IMG/VR virus record: IMGVR_UViG_3300017917_002544
Coordinates: 1-47,411 of that record
Length of the DNA stretch: 47,411 nt
Source: a virus
Direction: 5' to 3' (one strand)
Positions within the stretch are counted from its first letter, which is position 1. Every line of letters starts with the position of its first letter. The notes beneath the pieces were generated by a model. It had not been told where the DNA came from and made no database searches. It saw only the letters and a program-made list of their open reading frames with translations. This document shows positions 9,916-39,637 of the stretch, piece by piece. Position numbers and translations under genes: made by a program.

Positions 9916-10773
9916 TTAGAATGGAAGCTCTTCATCTGGTTCCTCATCAATTTGAGGGTCAACAATTGGTGTCGACGGAACTGAAGGTGTTTGTGGTTTT
10001 GAACCAAAATTATCTTCGTTTGATGTATTGGATACCCATTTACCTAAGTTAGAATCCCAACGAGGTACTTCACCTCTTGCAACCATCTCAAGATAATCTT
10101 CTCCCTTTTTAGAGTAAACATCAGACCAAACTAATTCATCATTTACCCATGAGTCGGCTGTAGATTGGTCAGTATGTAATGGACCCATATCTTCAGGAAT
10201 TACAGAATTAATAACCGTATATTCTTTACCTGTACCAGCTTTGGTTAATGCCAATGATAAGATTAAGTCACGACCTTTTTGAGTATCTGTAACGTCACCT
10301 TTGTTTCTAAAGATTGGAATGATTTTGTCTAAAATACCGTCACCTTTCGCATTGTGTTTAAATCTCCAAAACTTAACACCGTGATGTTCATTATCTCGGT
10401 CAATGATTTTAACGATATAAAACTTACGAGAACGATATTGACGAGCTAATTCCTTATCAGATTCAACACCCGTTAATAATAATTCTTCTTTAATCTCATT
10501 AAGTGGAGAACGTTTTCCTTCTTGTGCCGGGTCATAAAGTTTTACCCATTTTCCATCGACTTGAATTTCGTGAAACATTACCTCCACAAATGGTGATGAA
10601 CCATCTTTTGTAGGTAATATACGAATACGTCTTTCTTCACCTCGTGAACCCTTTGGGAGTACAGTTGTGAAGTACTTGTTCATACGGTCTTCTTGTGAAA
10701 CCTTGTTTCCGTTACCGCTTGCGGTTTGTTTGTTTTTCTCGTATTGAGCTAAAACTGCATCAAATGTTGACAT
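9916..10773 (-). CDS. Single-stranded DNA-binding protein, gp32-like, without zinc site
   Basis: This 285-residue protein resembles T4-type gp32, which coats ssDNA at replication and recombination sites. The family-like core includes RRIRILPTKDGSSPFVEVMFHEI, the VDGKWV segment and KFWRFKHNAKGDGILDKI. Place in the operon, directly before uvsX, supports this. Two features are odd. The protein contains no cysteine, so the zinc-binding subdomain of T4 gp32 (Cys77, Cys87, Cys90) cannot be present. It ends in EEPDEELPF, which resembles the acidic Pro-Phe tip of bacterial SSB rather than the T4 tail. The leader before the ATG is almost pure A/T, compatible with gp32-style autogenous repression, but this is not shown. 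Confidence 0.85.
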   Translation of the reverse strand: MSTFDAVLAQYEKNKQTASGNGNKVSQEDRMNKYFTTVLPKGSRGEERRIRILPTKDGSSPFVEVMFHEIQVDGKWVKLYDPAQEGKRSPLNEIKEELLLTGVESDKELARQYRSRKFYIVKIIDRDNEHHGVKFWRFKHNAKGDGILDKIIPIFRNKGDVTDTQKGRDLILSLALTKAGTGKEYTVINSVIPEDMGPLHTDQSTADSWVNDELVWSDVYSKKGEDYLEMVARGEVPRWDSNLGKWVSNTSNEDNFGSKPQTPSVPSTPIVDPQIDEEPDEELPF

Positions 10774-10815
10774 AATTGTTAAAAGTTAAAATTTAAATGT
10801 TTAATAAAGTATAAG

Positions 10816-10844
10816 AAAAAAAAACCGGATTACAAAATCCGGTT
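10816..10844 (-). terminator. Strong intrinsic terminator after the lipoprotein gene
   Basis: A perfect 9-bp stem AACCGGATT/AATCCGGTT (10823-10831 and 10836-10844) with a 4-nt loop is followed on the minus strand by a T run of at least seven. It ends the receptor/lipoprotein unit and insulates it from the ssb-uvsX operon. Confidence 0.92.
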
Positions 10845-10936
10845 CAAATATATTTTCAAAAGTTAAAAGATATGTTTCATAGTAATATTAATATAACTAG
10901 TAAATCACCAAAAGTAAAGGATTAAAAAACCATTTT

Positions 10937-12142
10937 TTAATTACCTTTTGTTGGGAACTTTGTCCAACCATTAGTCCAAGTTGGTTTAGAAAGAGTTTCC
11001 ATTTCTGTCTTTGTATATGATTTTTCAACATTACCTTCACTTAATGCTTTTGTTTTTACATCTGCCGATGTAATGATTGTAGTGGCTTTTGATATAAAGT
11101 TTAATGTTTGGTCATATGACTGAACTTCATTGTTTTGAAATTTAGATACACCATCTTTATATGATAGTGCAGTTTCATTACTTTCCATACTAAAACCACC
11201 TTTTTGATAACCTAATATCTTGGAGTTAGTTATTGTAAATTGAGTTGCACGTCTCCATCTTATACCTAAATTATGATTAGCTAACGCGGTCGCATCAAAT
11301 GGTCCAATTAAAATCATACCATTTAGTTTAGGATGTGTAAAAGGTTGTGCCGTTGAACCTGTACCATCATTATCACATTCGATACCGTTTCCGGCGTCAC
11401 CATTATCCACGAATTGTGGGTCTCTTTTTGCAACTCCGTTTTCAATAGTTCCTCTATATCCAAAATCAAAATCAAAATCATCATCCGCAGTGGCATATGC
11501 ATATAAGTTTTTAGGTGACACTGTTCCACCAAAAAATTCAAATGCGTCATCGTTAGCGTAGATGGTTTGAACATTCTCAATAATTGTTCCACTACCAACC
11601 CCTCCTAATGTTAATGCATTGATTTCAGAGTTTGGCATTGCAGCAATACCAGCATATTCAATACGAACATATTTTAAGATACCACTATTATCTAAATCAT
11701 TTGTACCTCCATAGGGTCTTCCAACACCACCTTCAATTGTTGGTTCGGCGGTTCTATTAGTAGTTGCCCTACCTAATATTACGATACCGCCCCAATCACC
11801 GGGCACCTTTTCACCAACTGCTCTACCTGATGTGAATACAATTGGTTTTAATTCTGTTCCTTCTGCGATAATTTGTGCACCTCTTTCAATACACAATGCT
11901 CCCTTTTCTGCAATATCAGATTTAATGACTGTACCTGGTTGAATGATTAATTTAGCACCATCCGATACATACACATATCCTTTTAATACCCACTCTTTAT
12001 CCGCAGTAAGAGTTGTGGTTGTGTTTATTGTACCAGATAATGTTGTGGATGTTGGTACATTAATCGGTGTAATTTCTCCACCTAAATCTTTAGAACACCC
12101 AAAGATTGTTAAACTCGCAAATAATACTAATAATTTTTTCAT
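10937..12142 (-). CDS. Surface lipoprotein, probable right-handed beta-helix, partner of the TonB receptor
   Basis: This 401-residue protein begins with a signal peptide and lipobox (MKKLLVLFASLTIFGC). The lipidated cysteine would be Cys16, followed by SKD, which resembles the Bacteroidota signal for lipoprotein export to the cell surface. The body has repeated short beta-strand turns typical of a beta-helix (for example GAKLIIQPGTVIKSD, then GALCIERGAQIIAEGT). Asp/Asn/Gly-rich loops such as DNGDAGNGIECDNDGTG may bind calcium. Its ATG overlaps the TonB receptor stop by 4 nt, so the two are translationally coupled, as with SusC/SusD-like pairs. The ligand is unknown. This is a host-type envelope protein that is unexpected in a phage core region. 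Confidence 0.85.
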   Translation of the reverse strand: MKKLLVLFASLTIFGCSKDLGGEITPINVPTSTTLSGTINTTTTLTADKEWVLKGYVYVSDGAKLIIQPGTVIKSDIAEKGALCIERGAQIIAEGTELKPIVFTSGRAVGEKVPGDWGGIVILGRATTNRTAEPTIEGGVGRPYGGTNDLDNSGILKYVRIEYAGIAAMPNSEINALTLGGVGSGTIIENVQTIYANDDAFEFFGGTVSPKNLYAYATADDDFDFDFGYRGTIENGVAKRDPQFVDNGDAGNGIECDNDGTGSTAQPFTHPKLNGMILIGPFDATALANHNLGIRWRRATQFTITNSKILGYQKGGFSMESNETALSYKDGVSKFQNNEVQSYDQTLNFISKATTIITSADVKTKALSEGNVEKSYTKTEMETLSKPTWTNGWTKFPTKGN

Positions 12143-14622
12143 AGGTTATAATTTAATGTTAATGAAACTGTTGTTTCGTTATTCGTTTTTATTAATGTTC
12201 TATTTGGTTTTTGGTAATATTCGGATGGTTGTCTGAATATATCAGACACCGATAATTTAATTTCTCCCTTTTTAATTTTATGGAGAATAACAATATCAAC
12301 CACATCACGTGAATTTTCAAATATATCAGGATACCCTTGAAATCCTACCGCCGATATTCTATCTCCAACTCTATTATATGATAAGTTTAATATATTATTG
12401 TTTTTATGTAAGTTCAAACCACCATTTATTACATAGTTTGATTGTCCTTGCAATTGTCTTTTAACTCCGTTTATATTGACTTCCGAATTGATGAATGATG
12501 TGTTTGAATATAAATCTAACCAATCATTTAATTTTTTACGAAGTTCAATTTCAACTCCATATACCAATGCCTCATTTGGATTTTTATATGTCAATAATAA
12601 ATTAGATGGAACCGAACCATCAGCCACGACTTGCTCAATTGGCTTAAAGAATTTTTTACCAAAGAAACCAATTGATATATTTTCACCTGATTTTGGATAT
12701 AACTCAAACTTTATATCTGAATTGAATATATCAGTTTTTTGTAAGTTGGGGTTACCTAATAATTGAGCATTTCTAACAAAATCATAATAAGCGAAATTAG
12801 CAACCTCTCTAAACTCCGGTCTAGCCAATGTTTTACTTATTGATAATCTGACTTTTGTTTTTTGAGATGTTGAATATGTGGTGTTTAATGATGGTAATAA
12901 ATCTAAATACTCTCTATTTACCGAAATCTTTTGTCCACTAAAATCGGATGTTTGAACTTTGAATAAATTATATTCCGTTCTAAAACCAGTGTTAATTTTT
13001 AATTTATTAATTTCTTTTTCATACATAACATATCCATTTGCCAAATCAAAATCGGCCGTGTATCTATCAGTATTGTTTGTAATTTCGTTTAATAAATCAT
13101 TAGATTCGTATCTGAATATTCTTGCTTTGAAGTTTCTTAATTTCTTCAAATAACCCACCCCTAATCGAATATCTCCTATAGACTTGTTCAATCCTCCATT
13201 GAATGAGTTTTCATCCATTACACTCCAAAAACGATATGTATCTCTCCATGCTATTGAGTAAGGGGTTGATGTATATAGAGATGATATGTAAGGTGTTACT
13301 CTATAATCAGGCTGGTCTCTTAACATAAGATTATACCCCACATTAAAATCAAATGTCTTAAATTTACCTTCAAATTGTGTATTGAATACTAATTTCTGAA
13401 TTGAGTTAGATGATTTACTATCCACATACTGTACATTATCATAATTCTCACCAACTCTACTTAAAAATGATTTTTCATTTTGGTAATTGGCAAGTGTTTT
13501 CCAACTATAACGATTCTCTCCCAAATAAACTATATTAAGTAATCCGTTTAATGATTGTACATTTGAATAATTTAAGTCTTTATAATTGTATGCCAATTCA
13601 GTTGATGATTGATAATCTATTCTTTCAGTTGTATTAGCGGAATAAGTATTTCTTGCGGTTGAGCTAAATAATATGTTCCATTTGTTTCTTACAACACCAA
13701 ACGCCAAATTACCATTTAAGTTTGGAATGGAAGAAAACTCTTCGGATTGAGGAGAACCTATTAGTTTAGTGTACGCTCTTCTATCACCTAATCCCGCAAT
13801 TCGATACCCATTTGTTGATGGAAATGATGATGGGAATTGAATTGGGTTTACCAACCTAAAGTCCTGTACAGTTGATAGTGAACCCCAACTTCCTCCCAAT
13901 GATATATTGAAGAAATCTCCCGATACTTCTTTTGTTGTTATTTGAATCAAACCTCCCGCAAAATCACCAGGTAAATTTGGCGATGCACCTTTGTTGATGA
14001 TTATATTATCTATAAGTGATGTGGGTATAATATCAAATGAAAACGCTCTTCTATCGGGTTCGGTTGATGGTAAGATTGATTTGTTTAGTAGAGCCGAGTT
14101 GTATCTATCAGCTAAACCTCTAACTAAAACAAACTTATCGTTTTGTATTGATACTCCACTAACTCTTTTAAGTGCATCACCAACAGTTCTATCGGGTGTT
14201 TTCTTAATGGATTCAATTGATAAACCATCAGCAACTATATAAGAAGATTTCAATGTATTGATAAGTGCAGTTGATGTTTCTTTTTTTGATATTTGTTTTA
14301 CCACAACTTCTTCTAATACCTTTGTGTCCTCTTCCATTAGAATGTCAAAACGTGTAGTATCATCAATTTGTATGGTTTTATTGTATTCTTTATATCCAAC
14401 AAACGAAGCCTTTATTGAATAGTGTCCTTTTCCGATATTAGGAAAATGATATTCTGAATTAATATCAGATGTTATTCCTATTTTTTTGTTCGTATCTGTG
14501 TTTGTTAACCAAATTGTAACCCCAATTAAATCTTCTTTGTTTGATTTTGTTTTACCTGATAAAGTTTGTGAGAATGTTTGGTATGAAAATAAGTAAATTA
14601 ATAATAAAAATATTTTCCTCAT
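12139..14622 (-). CDS. TonB-dependent outer-membrane receptor with carboxypeptidase-regulatory-like domain
   Basis: This 827-residue protein has the full architecture of a Bacteroidota TonB-dependent transporter. A signal peptide (about residues 1-18) is followed by a CarboxypepD_reg-like domain (about 20-95). A TonB-box-like segment VLEEVVV lies at 102-108 and the plug at about 125-233 (TVGDALKRVSGVSI, then NIIINKGASPNLPGDFAGGL). The rest is a 22-strand-type barrel, including the typical ARPEFREVANFAYYDF and GNPNL block, running to a complete last strand (TTVSLTLNYNL). Such receptors import large or scarce solutes using TonB energy from the inner membrane. The gene starts a two-gene unit with the lipoprotein and is bracketed by terminators. 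There is no sign of decay. Substrate and role in infection are unknown. Confidence 0.95.
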   Translation of the reverse strand: MRKIFLLLIYLFSYQTFSQTLSGKTKSNKEDLIGVTIWLTNTDTNKKIGITSDINSEYHFPNIGKGHYSIKASFVGYKEYNKTIQIDDTTRFDILMEEDTKVLEEVVVKQISKKETSTALINTLKSSYIVADGLSIESIKKTPDRTVGDALKRVSGVSIQNDKFVLVRGLADRYNSALLNKSILPSTEPDRRAFSFDIIPTSLIDNIIINKGASPNLPGDFAGGLIQITTKEVSGDFFNISLGGSWGSLSTVQDFRLVNPIQFPSSFPSTNGYRIAGLGDRRAYTKLIGSPQSEEFSSIPNLNGNLAFGVVRNKWNILFSSTARNTYSANTTERIDYQSSTELAYNYKDLNYSNVQSLNGLLNIVYLGENRYSWKTLANYQNEKSFLSRVGENYDNVQYVDSKSSNSIQKLVFNTQFEGKFKTFDFNVGYNLMLRDQPDYRVTPYISSLYTSTPYSIAWRDTYRFWSVMDENSFNGGLNKSIGDIRLGVGYLKKLRNFKARIFRYESNDLLNEITNNTDRYTADFDLANGYVMYEKEINKLKINTGFRTEYNLFKVQTSDFSGQKISVNREYLDLLPSLNTTYSTSQKTKVRLSISKTLARPEFREVANFAYYDFVRNAQLLGNPNLQKTDIFNSDIKFELYPKSGENISIGFFGKKFFKPIEQVVADGSVPSNLLLTYKNPNEALVYGVEIELRKKLNDWLDLYSNTSFINSEVNINGVKRQLQGQSNYVINGGLNLHKNNNILNLSYNRVGDRISAVGFQGYPDIFENSRDVVDIVILHKIKKGEIKLSVSDIFRQPSEYYQKPNRTLIKTNNETTVSLTLNYNL

Positions 14623-14694
14623 TGTTGTTTTTTAATTCAACAATAATTATGTATGGTACTTTAAAAAATACAATTTTTTGTGTTAAGAAATTGT

Positions 14695-14726
14695 TAAATA
14701 AAAAAGGTGAGAATTACTCACCTTTT
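14695..14726 (-). terminator. Intrinsic terminator upstream of the receptor cassette
   Basis: A perfect 10-bp stem AAAAGGTGAG/CTCACCTTTT (14702-14711 and 14717-14726) with a 5-nt loop is followed on the minus strand by TTATTT. It overlaps the stop codon of the ferritin-like gene and stops transcription of the tail block before the TonB receptor gene. The receptor must therefore have its own promoter in the roughly 75 nt at 14623-14695. I see no convincing match to the TATTTAT motif or to TAnnTTTG there. Confidence 0.85.
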
Positions 14727-15099
14727 ATTTACTTAGTGTCAATAGATATTTTAATTTTTGGAACAATCCAAGCATTTCATCTCGGAGATTTAATAAATTA
14801 GTGTCTTTCTCATCGATGTTATCTGTCCACTGAACAAATGCCTGACAAACTGTTTCAATCATTTCTTCGGGTTTTACATCAGTAATATTAACTAATTCAA
14901 TTTTACTTGATTCGTCATCTAATTTAAATCTACCATATTGACCCATTGCTTGTTCAATATATTCATCCATTAATCCTTCAAGTTCTTCTCTTACTTTTGC
15001 AAAACCTTCGTGTCTTGAGAAACCTTTTGTTTGCCAATGAAACACTTTTAGTTGTGCATGAAGACCTAAAAGAAAATTTACATTAGTATGTAGTTGCAT
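14725..15099 (-). CDS. Small helical protein, ferritin/Dps-like (DUF5856-like) phage protein
   Basis: This 124-residue, mostly helical protein contains LLGLHAQLKVFHWQTKGFSRHEGF followed by an ELEGLMDEYIEQ helix. It resembles a family of short phage proteins with ferritin/Dps-like first helices (DUF5856 is my best recollection). The His-Trp pair and the following Glu residues mimic Dps-type sites, but a full ferroxidase set is not evident, so enzymatic activity should not be assumed. It overlaps the preceding gene by 17 nt and is the last gene of the tail block before a terminator. The exact function is unknown. Confidence 0.7.
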   Translation of the reverse strand: MQLHTNVNFLLGLHAQLKVFHWQTKGFSRHEGFAKVREELEGLMDEYIEQAMGQYGRFKLDDESSKIELVNITDVKPEEMIETVCQAFVQWTDNIDEKDTNLLNLRDEMLGLFQKLKYLLTLSK

Positions 15100-15973: not shown

Positions 15974-18900
15974 TTATTCAACTGTAAAATAAACAACATC
16001 ACCATCGTTTATATTTAATTTTTTTGCCAATTCTTTGGATAACGCAATACCATAACCATTTACATTCGGTCCTTTATGTATACCACCTTTAATATTTTGT
16101 GGTGTAACTGTGTCCGAATTAGTATATCCATCTATTGTAACTGTGGTTTTTAAATCTTTAGGATTGTAGAATGTTGTTTTGGCTTTAAGAATTTTATCTC
16201 CTTGTGGTACGAATACCATGTTACCTAAGTCATAGTTTACAGCGTAGAAGTAATTTTTGGAATTTACAATATCACTCCATAAAATTTTTGATTCCCTTGT
16301 GCTATCACCTGAATTAATATTTATTTCTTTTGTTATATTCGGAATAGTCATAACTGTATTTAATTCCAAACCATAAGTTTTACCTCCCATTATAGTGGCA
16401 ACAGCTCTTAAATATCTTTTATCTATTGGTCCGTTAGAATTACTTACTAATTGAATATATTTTTCACCATTGAAACCGTTATATCTTATACCAAATTCAT
16501 TTATTTGAGAAAGATTAATTATTTGTTCACCGGCAATTTCTTTATCTTTTGAACCCATGTCAATAGTATAATTTCCTGTTTCTGTTGATATGGTTGTTTC
16601 ATTTTGTGTTTTACCACTTAATCTTAAATCTTCTTCTTTTTGTCTTGCAATTGCTTTATCAGTAATTCTTTCAAATAGTGCTCTGAAACTAGCGGTAAAA
16701 GAATCTTGTGGGTCAGGAAGTGCGTTTCTCGACATTCTTACACCGGTGAATGTAGTTTCCATATTATTATTTCTTATTGAATGTGACACTTGTGTAATCC
16801 AATAAGACCCTCTAAACATTGGAACGTTTTTCAGATAAAAAAACATTGTAGGTTGAATCATCGCGTTACCCATACAAGTTACTTCACAAGTATATGATGC
16901 CTGTCTATATATGTCAAATAAACTCACATCAATTTGTGATGTTGCCGAACCGGCTTCACTTCTACCTAATTGTTCCATCACAATAAATGATTCGGTTGTA
17001 TTTTTAATACTATCTTGTGATAATGAAACTCCTTTAAATATACTTTGATTTTGGTCCCCAATGTTCACATCAAACGCTACAACTCTATTTGAATTTTTGA
17101 AGTCTGAATTTTGGAATTCAATAGGACTTGTTATTATTAAAGGATGTGTAGAATCTGCCATATTGAATGTATCGTTATTAAACAGAAAACCATTTTTATT
17201 AATGTCCTTTAAGTCAAGATGTTTGGATGTGTGACCAACATATTGTAATATGATTTTTGGTGAAGATTCTTCATAGTCAACCTCCAAAAATGTTCCAAAT
17301 AAATTATTGGCAACTTTTTTAGATGGAATTACTTTTGACGATGAACCACTTAATCCATAAAAGTTAACATATGCAGGCAATGCTCTCATATCAAATCCCG
17401 TACCGGCAATTAACATGGAGATTACACCATACATACTTTGTTTGTCATTTTTTGGGTCTTCTAATGAAATTAATTTGTCCATTGATAAAAACGCACTATT
17501 ACCGATGTCAATATTACGTTTATCCAAAAATAAGAACTCTTCAATTAATAATTTTTGTCCAATAGAATTACCGGCAATCCATTTATCATTAAATGATTTA
17601 AAGAAATTATACAATTCAAGTTTTATTGGTTCTTCATTATACCCATGGTCCAAAGTAATTGTTTGTCTTTGACTTGGTCCTTGTAATGAAGGAAACTTAC
17701 TTAATAATGTGGTTAAAAAATAACTTTTTCTTGTAACTGCAGATTGATTAGTTATTGTACCTGATGAAACAAAAAAATTATCTTGTATGTATTTTTTAAA
17801 TGCTTCATTTGTTTTTGTTCCACCGGCTTTTAAGTAACCACCCCAAATATGTACTAATGGTCTGAAATTTAAAATGTTTTCTTCACTTAATTCTATGTTG
17901 TTAAATTTAAAGAAGTCTTTATAAACATCTGTCACCGGTTCTTCACCCACATACAACTTTAATAAATTTTGGTTGTCAACATATTGTGACTCAAAATATT
18001 GACCTGTTTGAAATGAACTTTCATTATCAACGTTGGTAAACCCAACCCAAATATATGGGTCAATTTCCTTTGGGTTACCCATCGTTAATTTTATACCATT
18101 TACAGGATTTAAAATATCTTTTGTTATTGTTCTTAAATTTTCTGACTGTGTACTTTTAATCTTATTGATTAATAGATTTATATCGCTTGGGTCACTGTCA
18201 GTATGTTTTACTGTAACAATATTTTTTAAAATTGTTATGAAATTATCTTGTAAGGATAATGTAAATTTTTTAAATGGTTCTGATTCACCAACTTTATCTG
18301 TTGCGAAATCTAAAAAGATGTTTTCAAAATCATTAAGAATATTCGGACTAAACACCGCAATTAAATCATATATCTTTTGATATTCGTTTTCTATACGATA
18401 TTGATTATCTCTTGTTCTACCTGTTTCATACGATACATTATATTCACCATAATTTGGGAATTTAATACCTTCATATGTTCTGTCTAACACAACGTCGTCC
18501 CATATGATTCTGAAATTACTTTGTAATGAATCATCATGGCTTGGACTTTGGAAGTTAATATCTATATTCGAACCATCAGATGGTAATATTGTGTAGTTAG
18601 TATTTGTTGATGTGTATCCTGATTCGTTTACGAATCCTGTCCAATAATTTTTACCACCAAAATTTCTTGCTCTTAAATTTATTTTTCCTGAAGAAGAATT
18701 GGTATTGTATGTAATTTGGTCATTAGGGTCAAACAAATCATTACCGGTCAATATTCTATGAAATACTGTTTGATAATAAGGGTATAAACCTATATCCGTA
18801 TTGTTACTTAACGTTACCGGTCTTGAGAATGTTGATTTTTTATCATATGCCAAAAATATTTGACTTGTATTACCCGATACATCGTAGTATTGTGACACAT

Positions 18901-21724
18901 CCAAACTTTTTGTTGTTGTGTCCTCATTTGATGTTGTCATACCCGTCAAGATATCATAACCATCATATAAATAAGTTTTGTATCTGTGATAAATTGAACC
19001 CCACTTACAAATTAAATGATAAGGTATAACATGTGATGCACTAACCTCTTTGAACATTGATGACATTCTAGTTGTACCTGTCACATAATCTGAAAGTTCT
19101 TTAAAAGGTAACGAATTTAAAAATAAGTAAGCACTACCCGCATATTTTCCAAACGATTTACTTTTTTGGAAATCAGTATACAATTGATTGTGAAAATATG
19201 GTGTGTTTAAAATATATTCTCTTGTAACACCTGAACCAATATATAATTTGTGAAAGAATAAATTATCCTCAAAACCGGGTTTAACATAGTCTTTCATCTT
19301 AAGGATACTAGAACTTATTAATCCTTCTTCAGTTTTTACTTCTAAAATATCACCTAAATTAAAATTACTTGAATCGTATGATGTTTTATCAATATAAGAA
19401 AGATATTTGGTTGAATTAAATGGATATATGTTTAAACGATATGGTTCAAGTTTATAGTTCTTTAAATTATTTTTTAATTTTTGAAACTTATCATCTCTAT
19501 CAGGATTATTAGGTGCATTAAAATATTCCTCTATTTTATATGGTTTATTAACTAATGTTTTAATGTAATCAACCGTAGGTAACTCATCTCTGAAATATGG
19601 ATATCTTTCATAAGGTGATACTGAAATCATCTTATTTACCAATAAATCCGGTGTAGAAATAGTTTTAAGTATATCTAATAAATCCGTATCTTCTTTTAAT
19701 AAGTTTGAGATTATTTCAAATTCATTTTGTGCCAATTCATTTATGGCATCAGTTTGATTATTTAATAAAGTCGAACCGAAAGAATCAAAATATGTTATAT
19801 ATCTTGCTCTCTCATAAATTTCATATAGTATAGACGCAATCGATTTATTAAGATACGGTTGGAAGTTCATTAATGAAAATAGTGTAGACTGTTTTGGTGT
19901 GTCCACATATTCTTCATCATTTTGAAAAACAAAACTTATGTTTTGTACACCTCCTTCTTTATCAGATAATGAATCAATTCTTTTTGTTGCAACACCATAG
20001 AAGTTTTCTAAAAACTCTATTTCAGGCCACAACACAGGATTGTTGGAATTTAATACTTTAACTAAATCTTTATGACCCGGATAAGCTAAAACTTTTTGTT
20101 TGTTTTTACCTAATCTTTTTACTTGTGGCCAAGGGAAAATTTGGTCACCCGGTGCTTCATCACCTAATTTACCTATTCTCAATGCACGTTCAACACCCGA
20201 ATCAAATGATTTAATATGGACATCTTTCAATAATCTAATATATGTGTCAGCGTTAGCACAGATAATTGCAAAAATATTCTTTATGGTTGGAATGAATCCT
20301 AAACCTTTTTCTTTATCCAAAAAGATATCATTCATTTTTTTCTCTACACTATCTTGTACCTTTTGTTTTTGTACATTTAATGAATTAGAAATGATATCTA
20401 TGTCATCTAAAATTTTATCAATAGCAATACCATACTTACCATTAGTATCTTCATAATATTGGTTTATGGATTTTATTGAATTATTTACCGATATCGCCAA
20501 TTTTTTAAAATCAGCACCTCCGGTTTTCTTTTTTAAATCTTCAGTATATAATTTATTTTTCTTTAATAAGGTTACACCATTTACTAATAATTGTTCAAGT
20601 GTACCATTTTTTTTCGGATTTTCTACAAGTTCTAAATTATTTCCTTTCGATGCGGCCAAATAACGATAACTTATATTATTCTTTGTAAAAGTAGTACTAC
20701 TTAAATTTCTTTGACCCCACTCATTTACGTATTTTTTAAATTCACTTATTGTTTTTTCAAATTCTTTAATACCTGAAAAAATTCTCATGTCCACCGATTG
20801 GTCAAATATTTCTCTTTCCAATATTCGGTCTAATGATTTTGCAATAGTAATAATCTCTCTTAATGTTCTTGGTTTTTCAAGAAAAGAATTTGGTAAATAA
20901 CCTTTACGAACATATTCCTCATATACAGATTTAAGTGTGGTAAATCCTTTTGATGATTTAGAAATTGTTTTTTCATATCTACCGGTATTTGGATTAAATC
21001 TTCCTGTCGATGTTTTCTCTGAAGAATACATATAAGGTGCATTCAATATACCATTAATTGGTATGTCGGCTAAATACGCATACGTTGAACCAACAAATGT
21101 TGTGTTGATTTCAAAATTACCGTTATTACCATTAAATCTTGATGTAAATTTAGTTAAGTGTAGTCTGTATCTTATCGCTTTACCATAATGTCCTTTAACA
21201 GTTAAATAAAATATTGGCCATGGTAAATGAAAAAACGCTTTATATGGTGAATTTTCGGGTGATTCAAATAAAGTTTTACCTCTTACATCAATAAAATTAA
21301 TGTTTATTTGAGGAATAAAATTACCACCTTTAACATTGATGTTTATACTCTCAATACCGAATGATTGTGCCGAAGCGTCACTTTTATATAAAGACGATTC
21401 ATCTGTATTAACTATCTGATTTGTTTCAATAAATGAATCAGTCCATGTGGTATCATAATCACCACCTCCTTGTTTTTTTAAAAAGTTTAAAGTTCCCTCC
21501 GCAATTGTTAATGTTGTTGTATTTTTTTCCTTATCAACAATTAAATTTGTTCTTGGTACTAAATCGGCTTCAAGATTAACGTAAATAACTAAATTTTCTT
21601 GTTCAATATTACGCATCAAAACCTCCCCATCGGATATGACACTATTTGGGTCGACATATAATAAATTATTTTGGTCGACCTTTACATAAATGTCTTGGGT
21701 TTTATTTAAATTATTTTTCGCCAT
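15974..21724 (-). CDS. Giant baseplate protein with hub-like C-terminal region
   Basis: At 1916 residues this is the largest protein in the window. Three regions stand out. The N-terminal part (about 100-230: SININVKGGNFIPQININF, then GHYGKAIRYRLHLTKF) resembles tail/baseplate beta-domains. A long central region matches nothing I know. Near residues 1600-1660 (GNAMIQPTMFFYLKNV, FRGSYWITQVSHSI, TTFTGVRMSR) the pattern resembles gpD/gp27/VgrG-type hub proteins. The last 60 residues (YGIALSKELAKKLNINDGD) look like a double-psi or swapped-hairpin beta barrel. The start overlaps the gp53 end by 14 nt. A central hub or spike-platform role is inferred. No lysozyme motif was recognised. Confidence 0.75.
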   Translation of the reverse strand: MAKNNLNKTQDIYVKVDQNNLLYVDPNSVISDGEVLMRNIEQENLVIYVNLEADLVPRTNLIVDKEKNTTTLTIAEGTLNFLKKQGGGDYDTTWTDSFIETNQIVNTDESSLYKSDASAQSFGIESININVKGGNFIPQININFIDVRGKTLFESPENSPYKAFFHLPWPIFYLTVKGHYGKAIRYRLHLTKFTSRFNGNNGNFEINTTFVGSTYAYLADIPINGILNAPYMYSSEKTSTGRFNPNTGRYEKTISKSSKGFTTLKSVYEEYVRKGYLPNSFLEKPRTLREIITIAKSLDRILEREIFDQSVDMRIFSGIKEFEKTISEFKKYVNEWGQRNLSSTTFTKNNISYRYLAASKGNNLELVENPKKNGTLEQLLVNGVTLLKKNKLYTEDLKKKTGGADFKKLAISVNNSIKSINQYYEDTNGKYGIAIDKILDDIDIISNSLNVQKQKVQDSVEKKMNDIFLDKEKGLGFIPTIKNIFAIICANADTYIRLLKDVHIKSFDSGVERALRIGKLGDEAPGDQIFPWPQVKRLGKNKQKVLAYPGHKDLVKVLNSNNPVLWPEIEFLENFYGVATKRIDSLSDKEGGVQNISFVFQNDEEYVDTPKQSTLFSLMNFQPYLNKSIASILYEIYERARYITYFDSFGSTLLNNQTDAINELAQNEFEIISNLLKEDTDLLDILKTISTPDLLVNKMISVSPYERYPYFRDELPTVDYIKTLVNKPYKIEEYFNAPNNPDRDDKFQKLKNNLKNYKLEPYRLNIYPFNSTKYLSYIDKTSYDSSNFNLGDILEVKTEEGLISSSILKMKDYVKPGFEDNLFFHKLYIGSGVTREYILNTPYFHNQLYTDFQKSKSFGKYAGSAYLFLNSLPFKELSDYVTGTTRMSSMFKEVSASHVIPYHLICKWGSIYHRYKTYLYDGYDILTGMTTSNEDTTTKSLDVSQYYDVSGNTSQIFLAYDKKSTFSRPVTLSNNTDIGLYPYYQTVFHRILTGNDLFDPNDQITYNTNSSSGKINLRARNFGGKNYWTGFVNESGYTSTNTNYTILPSDGSNIDINFQSPSHDDSLQSNFRIIWDDVVLDRTYEGIKFPNYGEYNVSYETGRTRDNQYRIENEYQKIYDLIAVFSPNILNDFENIFLDFATDKVGESEPFKKFTLSLQDNFITILKNIVTVKHTDSDPSDINLLINKIKSTQSENLRTITKDILNPVNGIKLTMGNPKEIDPYIWVGFTNVDNESSFQTGQYFESQYVDNQNLLKLYVGEEPVTDVYKDFFKFNNIELSEENILNFRPLVHIWGGYLKAGGTKTNEAFKKYIQDNFFVSSGTITNQSAVTRKSYFLTTLLSKFPSLQGPSQRQTITLDHGYNEEPIKLELYNFFKSFNDKWIAGNSIGQKLLIEEFLFLDKRNIDIGNSAFLSMDKLISLEDPKNDKQSMYGVISMLIAGTGFDMRALPAYVNFYGLSGSSSKVIPSKKVANNLFGTFLEVDYEESSPKIILQYVGHTSKHLDLKDINKNGFLFNNDTFNMADSTHPLIITSPIEFQNSDFKNSNRVVAFDVNIGDQNQSIFKGVSLSQDSIKNTTESFIVMEQLGRSEAGSATSQIDVSLFDIYRQASYTCEVTCMGNAMIQPTMFFYLKNVPMFRGSYWITQVSHSIRNNNMETTFTGVRMSRNALPDPQDSFTASFRALFERITDKAIARQKEEDLRLSGKTQNETTISTETGNYTIDMGSKDKEIAGEQIINLSQINEFGIRYNGFNGEKYIQLVSNSNGPIDKRYLRAVATIMGGKTYGLELNTVMTIPNITKEININSGDSTRESKILWSDIVNSKNYFYAVNYDLGNMVFVPQGDKILKAKTTFYNPKDLKTTVTIDGYTNSDTVTPQNIKGGIHKGPNVNGYGIALSKELAKKLNINDGDVVYFTVE

Positions 21725-22037
21725 AATATGTTACATACAATTCAATACCTCTTTTATAGTCTTGTAAAGAAGTGTTAAGTGGAAAAGGTATTCTTATGAA
21801 AGAATTGTCAGGTATTTCAAATTCTACACTACCTAAAAGTGGATTAGCTTGAAGTATTAACCATCCAAATAGAGGTGAGTTATAATATTCTTGTGAAATT
21901 TTATCCAATCTATCTTTCCCTCTCTTGAATTGTAAATATTTGTCGGTACTTTTTATAGGTATTTCAATTCCCGGTACCATTCTAAAATTTCCTTCACTTA
22001 CAAAATCTTGGTACCTATCATAATATTGTCTACTCAT
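21711..22037 (-). CDS. Baseplate wedge protein, gp53-like
   Basis: This 108-residue protein matches the gp53 wedge family, which clamps neighbouring wedges in T4-like baseplates. The LysM-like portion is visible: YLQFKRGKDRLDKISQEYY, then FGWLILQANPLLGSVEFEIP and a hydrophobic strand with an RIPFPL end. It overlaps the preceding 1623-residue gene by 4 nt and the following giant hub-like gene by 14 nt, so all three are translationally coupled. It is much shorter than T4 gp53 (196 residues) and may lack the C-terminal part of that protein. Confidence 0.88.
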   Translation of the reverse strand: MSRQYYDRYQDFVSEGNFRMVPGIEIPIKSTDKYLQFKRGKDRLDKISQEYYNSPLFGWLILQANPLLGSVEFEIPDNSFIRIPFPLNTSLQDYKRGIELYVTYYGEK

Positions 22038-25000
22038 GGTTTATAGAAGTTTAAAGTGTTAGATAGTTTATTAAACGAACCATTTATTTTAAATAATACA
22101 TCTTTTTCTACTCCATCAGTTATGTCACTATCAGCACCCGCAATATATTCTAAAGGCATCGTATTTTTTCTTTTTGGGTATTTTCTGTCCTTGAACTTTT
22201 TTTCTTTTAAATTAATATCTATAAATTGAGAATATTTTTTATTCATTTTTTCCTTATATTCAGTGAATACGGGGTCACTATAAATTGAAGAAAAATCACT
22301 CCACTTGACATCTTTTAAGAATATAGATAAAATTTCACTTAAAGTAGAGTCATTCATTGAAGTACTACTAAAATTTATTGATGTATCTAAAGTAGAAACA
22401 AACTCAGAGTTTATTTTATCTAAAAACTCTATACCTATCTTATATTGATTGTAAAAATCTTCATCAACAAATCCCGTTAATTGAGTTGCGGTGAAAGTTA
22501 CACCACTTATTTTTGCATCGTGTTGATATTGTACCAAATAATTAAATTTATCAACAATACCAATCAATTCATTTCTTGATGTTTCTACATCTTTTATTGA
22601 TTTAATATCCACAAAAGAATCTACCGTTTTTGTAACTAAATCATTTAAATACGGTTTTAAAACGTTTTCTGAATTTGATATTAATTTATCAGGGAACGCA
22701 TTATCAAGTTCCATTAATTCAGTACAATTGTTTGATGAAATTGCCGATAATATAGCACTTTTAAATATATTACTAAAATATGACAAATCTTTATTTATTG
22801 GGTATTGTCCCAATAATTCCACCGAACTAATTGTTCCTCCCTCTATTGATAAATCTTTTACTGTTCTGTAAGTTGATGAAAAGAAAAGACTAGCAATTTT
22901 TTCACCATATTTTTTAAGGATTTCGTTTACTGCAACTTTATATGAATTATGATAATTTTCAATTTTTTTGAAGATACCACTATCACCATCCATTAAATCG
23001 GTGTAACTTATATTATCGTTAAACTTACTTCCAATATATGTACCTTCAGATACAGAAAAACTTTTACTTGAGTCATTTTTCGGGTCTTTTTGTGTCGTGT
23101 ATGGTTTGATTAAATCTTCCAAGAACTCTTTTGTAAAATCTTCTACTTTTTTTCCATTAATCGTTGAAGTTATTTTCGCCCTTTCGTCATACATTTCAGT
23201 GTTACCGTAAAAGTTAGAACTTAAGGCGTTCTGTAATCTTTCTACGGGTGCCTCTAATCCTTGTCCTCCAATAAACGCAACTTGTAAACTAACAGTAGCA
23301 ATCATTGGTTGAACACCGATACCTTCAGGATTTAAATCCCAAACATTCTCATCAAAAGTTATATTAACATCTCTAATAACCACTTTTGAATGATAAAAAT
23401 CACCAATTCTTAATACACATACAGGCGGCGGTCCAAATGAGGTATTTCTTGCAGTGACATCACCCGCACTATTATATCCTTTAATTGGTATAGTATCACC
23501 AGGTCTAACACATTGTAATAAGAATGTTAATCTACTATTTAAACCTTCAGGGGTTGTTGAGTGAAAACCAGGATGAAAATATCTTAACTTTTCTCTTAAT
23601 GAATTAAAAACAAATGGATCAGTCTCCTCTAATTTTTTGAAATAATATGATTCAGATAAAATCTTCATAATGATTTTTTGCATCATATTAATTTTTGGTT
23701 TAGGTTTACGTCCTTGTACGGTTCTATCGACATAGATTGTTCCTATTGGTTCGTTAGTGTCCGTAGTTCCTCCCGGTATATCGTCAGGATTTACAGTTTC
23801 AGATTCATCTTGTTTCTTACCTATTTTTGTGTATTCTAATTTAACAGAACCTTGTCTACAGAAAAACGCGATAGGTGCGGTAACTTTTAATCCTCTCTTG
23901 GTTGTAATCTGTTGATTACAATTTAAATTTTCACCACTGTTTGTGATATTTGATATTACCGAATTTTCACCATTTGTTTTTACTCTAACCTTTAAAACAC
24001 CACTTGTTTCGTATCCAAATTGTTTAAAGTCAAATTCTTGTTCTATTGGAGTTGTCATTCCCGGCCCCACAAATTCTTCCAATACTTTTTTATCAAACCA
24101 TAATTTTTCAGTGGGTACTGAAACACCATTACTAAACTTATCTATAAAATCTCTATAGATACTATGTGCTCGTCTAATTCCTAAATAAAAATTTCTCTTT
24201 TCGTCACCAACTTCAGATGCTGCGGTTATTAATGTTAAAATAACCTCATTAACTTTACCTTCTTTTACATCAGTCTTTAATGATGTTATTTGTGTATCAA
24301 ATGCAGTGTATCCTGTATTCATGGTATTAAAACCATAAGCTGTTTTACCTGTTTGAACTGATATAATTTGATTTCTTGTTGTTGTTAATTGTGCCCCTGA
24401 TAAACCTGATAATGGATTTGGATTACCTAATACAACTTTTCTATCGTTTTCCCCTGCCTTTCCACTTAAACTACCTGTAAGTATATCTGTTAAATCTTGA
24501 CTAAGGTCACTCATGAACCCGTTTTCTTTTGTTTTATATACATTATATAAATCTTTATACGGTTGTTTACTAATTAATTCTTGTCCCTTAATTAATTTAG
24601 GAAAGTCATTAGCAAAAAATAATTTTAAGTCAAGACTAATTGGTTCATCTGAATTATCTGTATTATTTGGAGTAGTTTCTACCGGTGTTTCTGTAACAGG
24701 AACATTCGCAGTATATTTAATACTTCTTATGGTATTACTATCAACTGTTTTATTATTTAAGTAATCTTGTACTGTTTTAATATCTTCAGGTTTTAAGAAA
24801 CTATACCTATTTATTAATTCGTAGAAATCCAATTCTTCACACCCACTAAAAACAGACATAATATAATTGTCAGCTTCTTCATCAGACATGTTTTTGAAAA
24901 AATCACTAACCAATAAATTAACAACACTTGGATGGTCGACTACAACTTTAAAACTTACTTGACCGGTTCTTGATGTGTTTTGATATGTGTATATTGGTTC

Positions 25001-26905
25001 GGGTCTACCTAAAAAACTATTTTCTTCCCATCTTGCACTATTTTGTTCACTTACTTTTAAATCATATGGTGGAAACCACATTACTCTACCACCATTTGGT
25101 CCTCTTTCTGCTACGGGTAAATCTATAACTCTAAATCCTTCAATATCTGATGTTTTCCATGCTAAATTTTCTATTGAAAACATATATTTCTTAGCATAAA
25201 ATCCACCACCAAATGGATAACCTGATGAAATATTTGTTGAACCTCTAAATTCGTCTTCTTCTGATGAACCTCTACCATTTGATATTGGTGCAATATTCAA
25301 ATTCCAAACTCTACTTGGTCCACCTAAAACACTTGAATCGAACTTTCGAATGTTACTTGTTCTTTTCATGGTGTCACTGTAATTTAAGTATGGTCTATCT
25401 TTTGTCCATACTCTACAATATTCAACACCCGCTTCGTCACTTGAGTATTTGCTTGTATATTTTATTGCCGAACCTCTTGATATTTTTATATCACCGTCCA
25501 TAAACATTCTACTTGTTTGGTCAATTACATTAGCAACATGTGAACGAGCGGCACCAGCATCTGATGGCATCGAATCCAATATTTGTTGTGTATATCCTAA
25601 TAACGAGTCTTCTCTAAATTGATAGTTCGTAGATAGTGAATTCTCTAATTTCGACTGTTCTTGACTTGAGTATTCTGTGTTATTTGCACCTAAATTATTT
25701 TTTGAATTCTTACTTGTCCAAGTTAATTGACCACCAACAAAACCACCATACAACATAGTACTTGGTTTGTGGAATAATTCTGCAGCCACCGAATCAAATA
25801 GTAATGATAAATAATAACTACTTCTTACAGGTCTATCGTTAAAATCATTTACAGCATATTTTACATCATTACCTCTATCATCACCGATATATGCAACACC
25901 GGCAGGTGCTTCCATACCAAGAAAATCTTTTATACCTTGTGCCGCTTGTTCAACATAATTAAAAATCTTTGATGTATTTTGTGAACGAGCCGTGGTTGTA
26001 TAATTTGGTGCATATTTTGAAAAACTTAACGCCTCAAATAATCTTTGTTTTTGTCCCTGACCCATATATTCTATTAAAAGGTCAGATGGTTTTCTTGTTT
26101 CAGTCGGTCTTCTTTCAATACCAATCATCGAACCCAATACACCTGTAACATCTTGAAGAAGTTTCCCAACCTCTGTGGATGCTTGTGGTCTTGTATTCTG
26201 ATTTGGTCTATATGGATTGGTAAGATAATCACCAGGTATTTGTGAAAACGGAATCTCTACACCAACACTATTTTCTAAAAAATCAATTGCCTTACCGGGT
26301 AATGTTTTTGACACCGTAATTGAATTATTCAATTCAATTAACGATTCTCTACCCGTAAGTAAATTAATTGCGGTATTTGTATTACCATTTAACGCATCTA
26401 ATAATCTTAAACGACCTGTTGTTAATCTTTCACTATTTTGTTTAATTCTTTGATATACAGGTCCATTTGTATCATTCTTAATATAATCCGCAGCAAATTT
26501 GAATAATTCAGATTCTGTTTCATAACCGGTTGAACCCATAATACCGATTAGATTATAGTTCGGTACATTCGTTGGAAAATATGGATATAATTTTAATCCA
26601 TTGTTTAATATTACATTACGTAAATCTTCAACAACATAATATTCACTGTCTTTAAATCTATTAAGTCCTGCCGTCTTTACTAATTGGTCATCTCGATTGA
26701 ATGCATCATTTTTTACAACATCTCCTTGGTCCGTGTTAGGGAATTCACTTAATGTTGCAAATCTATAGTCTGTTTTGGTAAATGTTTGTGGTCCATTTGG
26801 TACTCTCAATGTTTTTGATAAAACATAATCTCTGAAACCGGTTCTGATTGGACCAATTAATCCGTTTCCCGCTCTACTTGACTCAAAATCTAAATAACTT
26901 GGCAT
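22034..26905 (-). CDS. Giant baseplate/tail structural protein
   Basis: This 1623-residue protein sits between the tape measure and gp53 and is part of the baseplate block. Around residue 638 it has the GRPEPIYTYQNTSRTGQVSF segment, and at about 1115-1210 YFHPGFHSTTPEGLNSRLTF, then CVLRIGDFYHSKVVIRDVNI and FDENVWDLNPEGIGVQPM. The latter pattern resembles tube-baseplate connector proteins of the gp48/gp54 or LysM-associated type. The C-terminal third is helical and charged. T4 has no single protein of this size here, so this is probably a fusion or expansion of several baseplate functions. The assignment as baseplate is good; the exact role is uncertain. Confidence 0.72.
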   Translation of the reverse strand: MPSYLDFESSRAGNGLIGPIRTGFRDYVLSKTLRVPNGPQTFTKTDYRFATLSEFPNTDQGDVVKNDAFNRDDQLVKTAGLNRFKDSEYYVVEDLRNVILNNGLKLYPYFPTNVPNYNLIGIMGSTGYETESELFKFAADYIKNDTNGPVYQRIKQNSERLTTGRLRLLDALNGNTNTAINLLTGRESLIELNNSITVSKTLPGKAIDFLENSVGVEIPFSQIPGDYLTNPYRPNQNTRPQASTEVGKLLQDVTGVLGSMIGIERRPTETRKPSDLLIEYMGQGQKQRLFEALSFSKYAPNYTTTARSQNTSKIFNYVEQAAQGIKDFLGMEAPAGVAYIGDDRGNDVKYAVNDFNDRPVRSSYYLSLLFDSVAAELFHKPSTMLYGGFVGGQLTWTSKNSKNNLGANNTEYSSQEQSKLENSLSTNYQFREDSLLGYTQQILDSMPSDAGAARSHVANVIDQTSRMFMDGDIKISRGSAIKYTSKYSSDEAGVEYCRVWTKDRPYLNYSDTMKRTSNIRKFDSSVLGGPSRVWNLNIAPISNGRGSSEEDEFRGSTNISSGYPFGGGFYAKKYMFSIENLAWKTSDIEGFRVIDLPVAERGPNGGRVMWFPPYDLKVSEQNSARWEENSFLGRPEPIYTYQNTSRTGQVSFKVVVDHPSVVNLLVSDFFKNMSDEEADNYIMSVFSGCEELDFYELINRYSFLKPEDIKTVQDYLNNKTVDSNTIRSIKYTANVPVTETPVETTPNNTDNSDEPISLDLKLFFANDFPKLIKGQELISKQPYKDLYNVYKTKENGFMSDLSQDLTDILTGSLSGKAGENDRKVVLGNPNPLSGLSGAQLTTTRNQIISVQTGKTAYGFNTMNTGYTAFDTQITSLKTDVKEGKVNEVILTLITAASEVGDEKRNFYLGIRRAHSIYRDFIDKFSNGVSVPTEKLWFDKKVLEEFVGPGMTTPIEQEFDFKQFGYETSGVLKVRVKTNGENSVISNITNSGENLNCNQQITTKRGLKVTAPIAFFCRQGSVKLEYTKIGKKQDESETVNPDDIPGGTTDTNEPIGTIYVDRTVQGRKPKPKINMMQKIIMKILSESYYFKKLEETDPFVFNSLREKLRYFHPGFHSTTPEGLNSRLTFLLQCVRPGDTIPIKGYNSAGDVTARNTSFGPPPVCVLRIGDFYHSKVVIRDVNITFDENVWDLNPEGIGVQPMIATVSLQVAFIGGQGLEAPVERLQNALSSNFYGNTEMYDERAKITSTINGKKVEDFTKEFLEDLIKPYTTQKDPKNDSSKSFSVSEGTYIGSKFNDNISYTDLMDGDSGIFKKIENYHNSYKVAVNEILKKYGEKIASLFFSSTYRTVKDLSIEGGTISSVELLGQYPINKDLSYFSNIFKSAILSAISSNNCTELMELDNAFPDKLISNSENVLKPYLNDLVTKTVDSFVDIKSIKDVETSRNELIGIVDKFNYLVQYQHDAKISGVTFTATQLTGFVDEDFYNQYKIGIEFLDKINSEFVSTLDTSINFSSTSMNDSTLSEILSIFLKDVKWSDFSSIYSDPVFTEYKEKMNKKYSQFIDINLKEKKFKDRKYPKRKNTMPLEYIAGADSDITDGVEKDVLFKINGSFNKLSNTLNFYKP

Positions 26906-38512: not shown

Positions 38513-39637
38513 ATGGCAACACAAATCATAACACAAGAAGAAAAAGAAAAGTTATATACTCAGGTCTTTCATTTGTTAGGGATGCCCGTAAGAGGTATTG
38601 AATTAACTGAAGAACAGATGGATACGTTTTTGGAATTATCCATTTCAGAATATGAACAATATGTTTCTGATTGGTTAATTGAATCACAATGGTCATCTTT
38701 AGCCGGTGTGGATGTTGACACCGCATCTTTAGCAAGAGCTTTCACAACAAGAAGTTTAGATTACGAAACACAATTTACATATTCATATTCAAAAATTGTT
38801 GGTTTACAAGCCAATGGACCTCATGTTTTAAAGAAAGATTTTATTACACTGACAGGTGGTACACAAACATATGTGATTCCAGCAGGTCGTGAAATTAATG
38901 AGTTGTTATGGTTTACAAGAGCAGAATTAACAGATTCAATTATCGACCCATTCATTGGTGGATTTGGTGGTTTAGGTGGTGTTGGTTTTGGTGGTATTGG
39001 TGGTTATCATCAAATTGGTTCGGCGGGTTCATATTTTATGATGCCGGCATTTGATTTGTTATTAAGAATGCAAGATAGAAATATCAAAAACCGTTTAATT
39101 GGTGGAGATTTAACATACAGAATTACTGCGGGACCTGAGGGAACTAAATTAGTTCACTTGTATAATGTACCGGGTGGTAGATTTGATTTTGGTTCTATAG
39201 CGTCAAATTATTATCAAGTATGGTATTGGTATTATGAAACTGATACAAGAACAAGAGATGAGTGTTTAGAACAAAATAAAGATATTATAAAATTACCTTC
39301 AGATGTTGAAACTGAAACTTTAACATGGGTAAAATTAAATAAACCGGCACAAAACTGGGTTAGAAAATATCTTATTGCTTATTCAAAAGAAGGTTTGGGT
39401 CGTATTTGGGGTAAATTTAGTGGTGACCTTAAAGTACCTGATTCTGAATTAAAATTAGATTACACATCATTACTTACTGAGGGTAAAGATGAAAAACTTA
39501 AATTATTGGAGGAATTAACACAACGATTAGAAAGACTCCGCCCCGAAAAGATTCTTGAAAGAAAAGCTACCGAAGCGGAGAACTTAAATAAATCGTTGAA
39601 GTTTAGACCTATTATTTCGCCAATAGTTCCGATTTAA
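38513..39637 (+). CDS. Putative virion structural protein (neck/portal-vicinity candidate)
   Basis: The 374-residue protein begins with a helical region (LYTQVFHLLGMPVRGIELTE, EQMDTFLELSISEYEQYVSD) like head-tail adaptor N-termini. A beta-rich middle carries a Gly-rich loop at about 147-171 (GGFGGLGGVGFGGIGG). The C-terminus is a charged helix with repeated Leu/Glu (KLKLLEELTQRLERLRPEKI). Gene start is supported by the upstream CTATTTATA motif. It is convergent with, and overlaps by 4 nt, the DNA polymerase gene. I regard it as virion-associated by pattern and late-type motif; T4 gp13-like identity is possible but not demonstrated. Confidence 0.55.
   Translation: MATQIITQEEKEKLYTQVFHLLGMPVRGIELTEEQMDTFLELSISEYEQYVSDWLIESQWSSLAGVDVDTASLARAFTTRSLDYETQFTYSYSKIVGLQANGPHVLKKDFITLTGGTQTYVIPAGREINELLWFTRAELTDSIIDPFIGGFGGLGGVGFGGIGGYHQIGSAGSYFMMPAFDLLLRMQDRNIKNRLIGGDLTYRITAGPEGTKLVHLYNVPGGRFDFGSIASNYYQVWYWYYETDTRTRDECLEQNKDIIKLPSDVETETLTWVKLNKPAQNWVRKYLIAYSKEGLGRIWGKFSGDLKVPDSELKLDYTSLLTEGKDEKLKLLEELTQRLERLRPEKILERKATEAENLNKSLKFRPIISPIVPI

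Follow-up and report, generated by a model that had tools for sequence, protein, structure and literature searches.

A TonB-dependent receptor and surface lipoprotein pair in T4-like phages, apparently adopted from a host phosphate-starvation system

Introduction

Phage takeover of the host phosphate response has so far been described chiefly in cyanophages, where it proceeds via periplasmic binding proteins and phosphatases; cyanophage pstS and phoA are phage phosphorus-acquisition genes under control of the host PhoBR system. Here we analyse a 47,411-nt stretch of viral DNA (the window; IMG/VR record IMGVR_UViG_3300017917_002544, positions 1 to 47,411) that encodes a TonB-dependent receptor (TBDR) followed by a predicted surface lipoprotein. 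Our analysis suggests that this receptor-lipoprotein pair is derived from a host phosphate-starvation system, that it is preceded by a host-type phosphate-starvation switch, and that this T4-like virus of Bacteroidota thereby drives starved cells to gather phosphorus for viral replication.

The closest described cellular system is PUSIV of Flavobacterium johnsoniae (Fjoh_0543-0546), which encodes PhoR, PhoB, a TBDR, and the lipoprotein FII (PMC8115612). Its last two genes, Fjoh_0545 and Fjoh_0546, adjoin phoBR, encode a TBDR with Plug, CarbopepD_reg_2, and OMP_b-brl_3 domains and then a pectin-lyase-fold lipoprotein, and respond to phosphate depletion with log2 fold changes of 8.0 and 9.9, respectively (PMC8115612). 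The pair in the window has the same receptor domains and a lipoprotein of the beta-helix class, and the phosphate-starvation control shown for PUSIV would, by analogy, extend to the phage. PUSIV is chromosomal and adjoins phoBR, whereas the phage cassette stands alone with just its two genes, has an operator of its own, lacks phoBR, and encodes a receptor with shortened loops. The same study relates such lipoproteins to Caulobacter ElpS (PMC8115612). In Caulobacter crescentus, ElpS is a surface lipoprotein produced only in phosphate starvation that co-occurs in genomes with the TBDR CC0171 (PMC2996285), and the two thus resemble the phage pair in joining a surface lipoprotein to a co-occurring TBDR; ElpS is, however, alphaproteobacterial and its release depends on type II secretion, and CC0171 is reported to be constitutive (PMC2996285). 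Bacteroides XusA-XusB (PDB 9gbc) likewise consists of a TBDR and a surface lipoprotein, and its receptor matches that of the window in fold, but it serves siderophore uptake, is not phage-borne, and its XusB is matched by the window lipoprotein neither in sequence nor in fold.

Among viruses, TBDRs have been noted earlier in the megaphages Mar_Mega_1 and LR745206, where they were read as serving carbohydrate uptake (PMC9723777). The 635-kb megaphage LR745206 encodes its own receptor-lipoprotein pair (locus L101, 11755-15595), with a related beta-helix lipoprotein adjoining the TBDR as in the window, but the megaphage system (LR745206, Mar_Mega_1) is only 28-36% identical and has the reverse gene order, with the lipoprotein gene before the receptor. 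Our search of open-licence papers for a phage-encoded TBDR operon, or for a phage TBDR linked to phosphate, returned nothing beyond PMC9723777. An outer-membrane pair of this kind in phages, together with its Pho identity, its operator, and its distribution among T4-like phages of Bacteroidota, therefore appears to be new.

Materials and methods

Bacterial homologues were collected by scanning GTDB genomes with a lipoprotein profile; of the more than 580 relatives found, the 80 best were retained, and these loci were thus picked by lipoprotein similarity alone. IMG/VR was scanned with the receptor (20 loci) and with the lipoprotein (111 loci, best 80 kept). The direct repeat described below was first noticed in the window and afterwards tested in other sequences. 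P values for this repeat overstate certainty because related sequences are not independent, the bacterial set being more diverse than the phage set, and the P value for the region upstream of the lipoprotein gene was set aside since the receptor is encoded there.

Results and discussion

An intact receptor-lipoprotein operon

Both genes lie on the minus strand, receptor first, as intact open reading frames (ORFs) that overlap by 4 nt (12139-12142; Table 1). The receptor begins with a signal peptide (approximately residues 1-18), after which Pfam identifies a CarbopepD_reg_2 domain (22-108), a Plug domain (PF07715; 134-223), and an OMP_b-brl_3 barrel. A predicted TonB-box-like stretch, EEVVV, precedes the plug in a disordered segment, and several host copies have it too. 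The AlphaFold model contains the full plug and barrel with a predicted local distance difference test score (pLDDT) of 87.8, and the best solved matches found by Foldseek in the PDB are PhuR (top, E 4e-25), PfeA, FepA, and FecA. The Plug domain is conserved in the receptor alignment, and phage receptors are approximately 110 aa shorter than host copies, the missing residues lying mainly in loops and in the C-terminal portion. One phage receptor subgroup has lost the N-terminal regulatory domain: receptors of approximately 750 aa (e.g. L033, L038, L044) are without CarbopepD_reg, which the window copy keeps.

The lipoprotein has the lipobox FGC with its cysteine at residue 16, invariant in all 69 aligned sequences, and the mature protein begins with a K-D/E-rich N-terminus after this cysteine. 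Such a start is compatible with lipoprotein export in Bacteroidota, and the protein may accordingly be displayed on the outer face of the cell. AlphaFold predicts a parallel beta-helix body (pLDDT 93.5), and searches of Pfam, PHROG, NCBIfam, and PDB sequences found no relative. Since the partner of the receptor is a beta-helix without any Pfam match, SusD included, a SusCD-type glycan transporter was rejected. An enzymatic role was also considered; the Foldseek resemblance to alginate epimerases and pectate lyases is weak (best E 5e-3, template modelling (TM) score <0.4), and we therefore make no catalytic claim.

A sequence-only reading of the window had described a complete receptor followed, with a 4-nt overlap, by a lipoprotein with a beta-helix-like body, with T4-type genes on both sides. 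The gene boundaries, Pfam assignments, and AlphaFold models bear this description out, as do gp32, a UvsX-like recombinase, and a helicase on one side and a Dps-like gene and tail genes on the other. The structure prediction, phylogeny, and search of phage genomes that it had proposed are reported in this and the following sections.

Homologues of the pair adjoin phosphate genes in bacteria

In nearly all of the 80 bacterial loci a receptor gene adjoins the lipoprotein homologue, and in 27 of them phosphate genes lie near the pair (PhoB in 15, PitA in 14, PhoU_div in 14, Porin_O_P in 10, and Pst/PhoU in 7). These neighbourhoods include pstS, pstC, pstA, pstB, and phoU in Pontibacter (L127) as well as in L133, L149, L155 (pstS not scored), and L172, Porin_O_P, DUF47/PhoU_div, and Pit with phoBR in many Chitinophagaceae, and polyphosphate kinase with an exopolyphosphatase-like gene in L134. 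In Chryseobacterium (L171) genes homologous to the window pair stand in the order PhoR-PhoB-receptor-lipoprotein, as do Fjoh_0543-0546 in F. johnsoniae. Closest to the phage clade among bacteria are L105 in the lipoprotein and L106 and L107 in the receptor; all three are pit-DUF47-porin loci, and L105 and L106 also hold phoBR. As a control, 14 PstB genes above the curated cut-off were identified in 13 of 37 genomes; pstB lay within 10 kb of the pair in 4 of these 13 genomes, versus approximately 0.06 expected (13 genomes x 20 kb / ~4.7 Mb).

A Pho-box-like repeat precedes the receptor gene

Upstream of the receptor gene is the direct repeat TTAACA-N5-TTAACA, with a period of 11 bp, which has a single exact match in the window (0.03 expected). 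With a repeat score of at least 10/12 as threshold, it is present upstream of 78% of the receptor genes in bacteria (10.5% among 901 other genes), upstream of 80% of the phosphate porins at the bacterial loci, and upstream of 47% of phage receptor genes (4.4% among other phage genes). Upstream regions of pstS at the bacterial loci are not raised (1 of 8), partly because pstS can sit downstream within the same operon. Separate de novo motif searches on phage and bacterial upstream regions converged on the same repeat. A model trained on the bacterial homologues alone scored the window site at 15.7 bits, the top score against 1392 other phage gene upstreams, and 26 of 39 upstream regions of phage receptor genes exceeded the 95th percentile. 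In two isolate genomes the exact matches include sites at pstS, Porin_O_P, polyphosphate kinase, a phoR-like kinase, and DUF47-pit, those near pstS and the porin coming from a genome scan of Pontibacter; the repeat is therefore likely, judging from sequence, to be the Pho box of these bacteria. The second-best Pho-box-like score in the window (9.1 bits) lies upstream of a gene at 38513 (+) for a 374-aa protein without clear family.

Spread, descent, and selection in phages

The pair is present in approximately 80 other viral contigs, and the exact 4-nt overlap recurs in 85 of 88 other loci that hold both genes (about 10 contigs being counted twice). Because the flanking genes vary widely from contig to contig, the pair appears to travel as one unit between phage backgrounds. 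T4-type gp23 was found in 13 and phoH in 16 of 35 carriers, ribosomal protein L14 in none of them, and a T4-type tail sheath in 9 of 30 carriers. All 31 phage rows of the lipoprotein tree form one clade (100/100) that is sister to a Chitinophaga sequence from a metagenome-assembled genome and lies inside Chitinophagaceae, and the 26 phage rows of the receptor tree likewise form one clade, which nests with Sediminibacterium, Gynurincola, and a further Chitinophagaceae sequence and has a long branch (0.71). Given one phage clade in both trees, the main clade is most simply explained by a single acquisition followed by evolution within phages. The lipoprotein of megaphage LR745206 falls outside this clade and its pair is therefore probably a separate acquisition.

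Phage copies of both genes are under purifying selection. The ratio of nonsynonymous to synonymous substitution (dN/dS) ranges over 0.04-0.16 in the receptor and lies mostly at 0.05-0.2 in the lipoprotein, and one near-identical pair that has almost no changes gives 0.3; for the window copies against their relatives it is 0.08-0.11 and 0.14-0.16, respectively. Six faecal records labelled as phage also matched the receptor but were not used: in four the match is confined to its N-terminal quarter, MT838075 resembles a piece of a Bacteroidales chromosome, and MT837092 is not clearly phage. In one group of carriers (L004, L010, L017, L020, and L021), several further proteins with apparent signal peptides (541-644 aa, 239 aa, and 526 aa) are encoded around the pair, hinting at a wider envelope-modifying region.

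The cassette occupies a cargo site with clean edges

Comparison with 102 relatives identifies the interval between dps and gp32 as a cargo site in the window's own lineage. The interval measures at most 200 bp in 59 relatives, 200-500 bp in 23, and up to 1.2 kb, with other small genes, in 20; the pair was found there in none of the 102, and 24 whole records are without it anywhere. Against approximately 100 relatives with an empty site both insertion edges are clean, the stop codon of dps and the ancestral terminator of gp32 being preserved. The hairpin 3' of the lipoprotein gene corresponds to this ancestral dps-gp32 terminator, a similar hairpin preceding gp32 in empty-site relatives. In relatives the interval corresponding to window positions 10774-14724 is either empty or occupied by small genes (75-349 aa, starting MISGSA...), some of which carry long T-P repeats.

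Table 1. Positions of the receptor-lipoprotein cassette and bordering features in the window
Feature	Position	Strand	Evidence or remark
TonB-dependent receptor, 827 aa	12139..14622	-	ORF, Pfam, AlphaFold, Foldseek, dN/dS
Surface lipoprotein (predicted), 401 aa	10937..12142	-	ORF, AlphaFold, homologues, dN/dS
Pho-box-like direct repeat TTAACA-N5-TTAACA, 11-bp period	14681..14697	-	Ends 58 nt 5' of receptor start codon
Intrinsic terminator at boundary of dps-like gene and cassette	14702..14726	-	10-pair stem and T tract; z -5.5
Terminator 3' of lipoprotein gene	10822..10845	-	10-pair stem and T tract; z -5.1
gp32-like single-stranded DNA-binding protein, downstream border of cargo site	9916..10773	-	PF08804; neighbour conserved in relatives
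Dps-like/DUF5856 protein, upstream border of cargo site	14725..15099	-	PF19174, PHROG 858; neighbour conserved in relatives

Function of the pair and competing explanations

Of the features of a PUSIV-like Pho-regulon pair, the phage genes show a receptor and a beta-helix lipoprotein in one operon, homologues linked to phosphate genes, and a Pho-box-like repeat upstream. The pair is thus probably a Pho-regulon outer-membrane uptake pair adopted by the phage, switchable by host PhoB and raising phosphorus uptake during infection. The sequences show intact genes, family membership, linkage of bacterial homologues to Pho loci, a shared operator motif, purifying selection, and a single origin of the main phage clade; binding by PhoB, display on the surface, the substrate, and a benefit to infection are inferred. 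When a Bacteroidota host is starved of phosphate, phosphorylated host PhoB would bind TTAACA-N5-TTAACA and turn on the bicistron; the lipoprotein, shown on the cell surface, would capture or process phosphate or a phosphorus compound and hand it to the receptor, which, energized by TonB, would deliver the substrate to the periplasm for the host Pst/Pit systems. The flow of phosphorus into phage DNA could thereby be maintained, which would help to meet the phosphate needs of phage DNA synthesis. Several points weigh against this interpretation. No member of the pair family has an established substrate, and the likeness to Fjoh_0545/0546 and ElpS is one of domain content, fold class, and synteny. 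In addition, approximately one third of phage receptor genes have no clear upstream motif, 53 of the 80 bacterial loci have none of the tested phosphate genes in the flank covered, and PstS was not found in the 35 pair-carrying phage records.

Phages commonly enter through TBDRs, and one such receptor is blocked by phage lipoproteins such as T5 Llp. The phage TBDR could replace, or its lipoprotein cap, a host TBDR used by competing phages, and the loop-trimmed, long-branched phage receptors would fit such superinfection exclusion. We nevertheless consider it unlikely, given that the entire plug, the TonB-box-like stretch, and the barrel are conserved with dN/dS of approximately 0.1, that both partners descend jointly from a Pho pair, and that a Pho-type operator ties expression to starvation instead of to every infection. 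A dual role, in which the pair feeds phosphorus under starvation while its trimmed loops, unlike those of the host copy, deny docking to competing phages, is likewise doubtful. Of the functions offered by the sequence-only reading, namely nutrient import, masking or replacement of the entry receptor, and envelope remodelling, masking has gained no positive evidence, whereas nutrient import is supported and can be narrowed to phosphorus on account of descent, homologue neighbourhood, the Pho-box-like operator, and the published induction in Flavobacterium (PMC8115612). Import of another nutrient, such as the carbohydrate proposed for the megaphage receptors, which were labelled SusC-like (PMC9723777), might draw on the faint likeness of the lipoprotein to alginate epimerases and pectate lyases; however, those Foldseek matches are not significant, a SusD partner is missing, and the homologues adjoin phosphate genes, all of which make it improbable.

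The sequence-only reading had also warned that host DNA might have been joined to the phage in assembly. The window is a single contig without reads, the search turned up no second contig in which the pair separates dps from gp32, and the 24 relatives without it would agree with a chimera; yet the pair recurs in about 80 viral contigs, phage copies group in a fully supported clade apart from every bacterial copy, L14 is absent from all 35 carriers while many have gp23 or phoH, and the insertion edges leave the flanking signals in place. Host contamination was rejected on the carriers' phage markers, the separate clade, and the clean edges, and an artefact of either kind is very improbable: the concern is answered for the family and largely so for the window contig. 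The statement of the same reading that a full-length phage-encoded TonB receptor operon was "not something I know of" proved too strong, taken as a claim of novelty, in view of the megaphage TBDR (PMC9723777) and the IMG/VR contigs.

Adoption of a Pho-regulon uptake pair would make the window pair resemble cyanophage pstS and phoA as phosphorus-acquisition genes driven by host PhoBR, although those genes encode a periplasmic binding protein or a phosphatase, not an outer-membrane pair, and act in another host phylum; an outer-membrane counterpart of cyanophage pstS is, by analogy, the best explanation of the pair. Many T4-like phages of Bacteroidota would then encode the outer-membrane step of phosphorus acquisition, of which little is understood in this phylum, apparently in a form wired to host PhoB. 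If so, extracellular phosphorus limitation should restrict these phages, TBDR/beta-helix pairs should import phosphorus, and phages of Bacteroidota should sense the nutrient state of their hosts.

Other genes in the window

Genes characteristic of T4-like genomes, including gp32, UvsX, helicase, and contractile tail genes, surround the pair. Its downstream neighbours, identified by Pfam and PHROG, are gp32, the UvsX-like recombinase, a 5'-3' exonuclease, a DnaB-type helicase, and ribonucleotide reductase; upstream, the Dps-like gene is followed at greater distance by tail sheath, tail tube, and baseplate genes. A DNA polymerase gene also lies farther from the pair. Beside the baseplate genes, positions 15974-21724 and 22034-26905 encode proteins of 1916 and 1623 aa that have no PHROG match and diverge fast (approximately 40-50% identity among relatives); these are probably adhesion or tail proteins.

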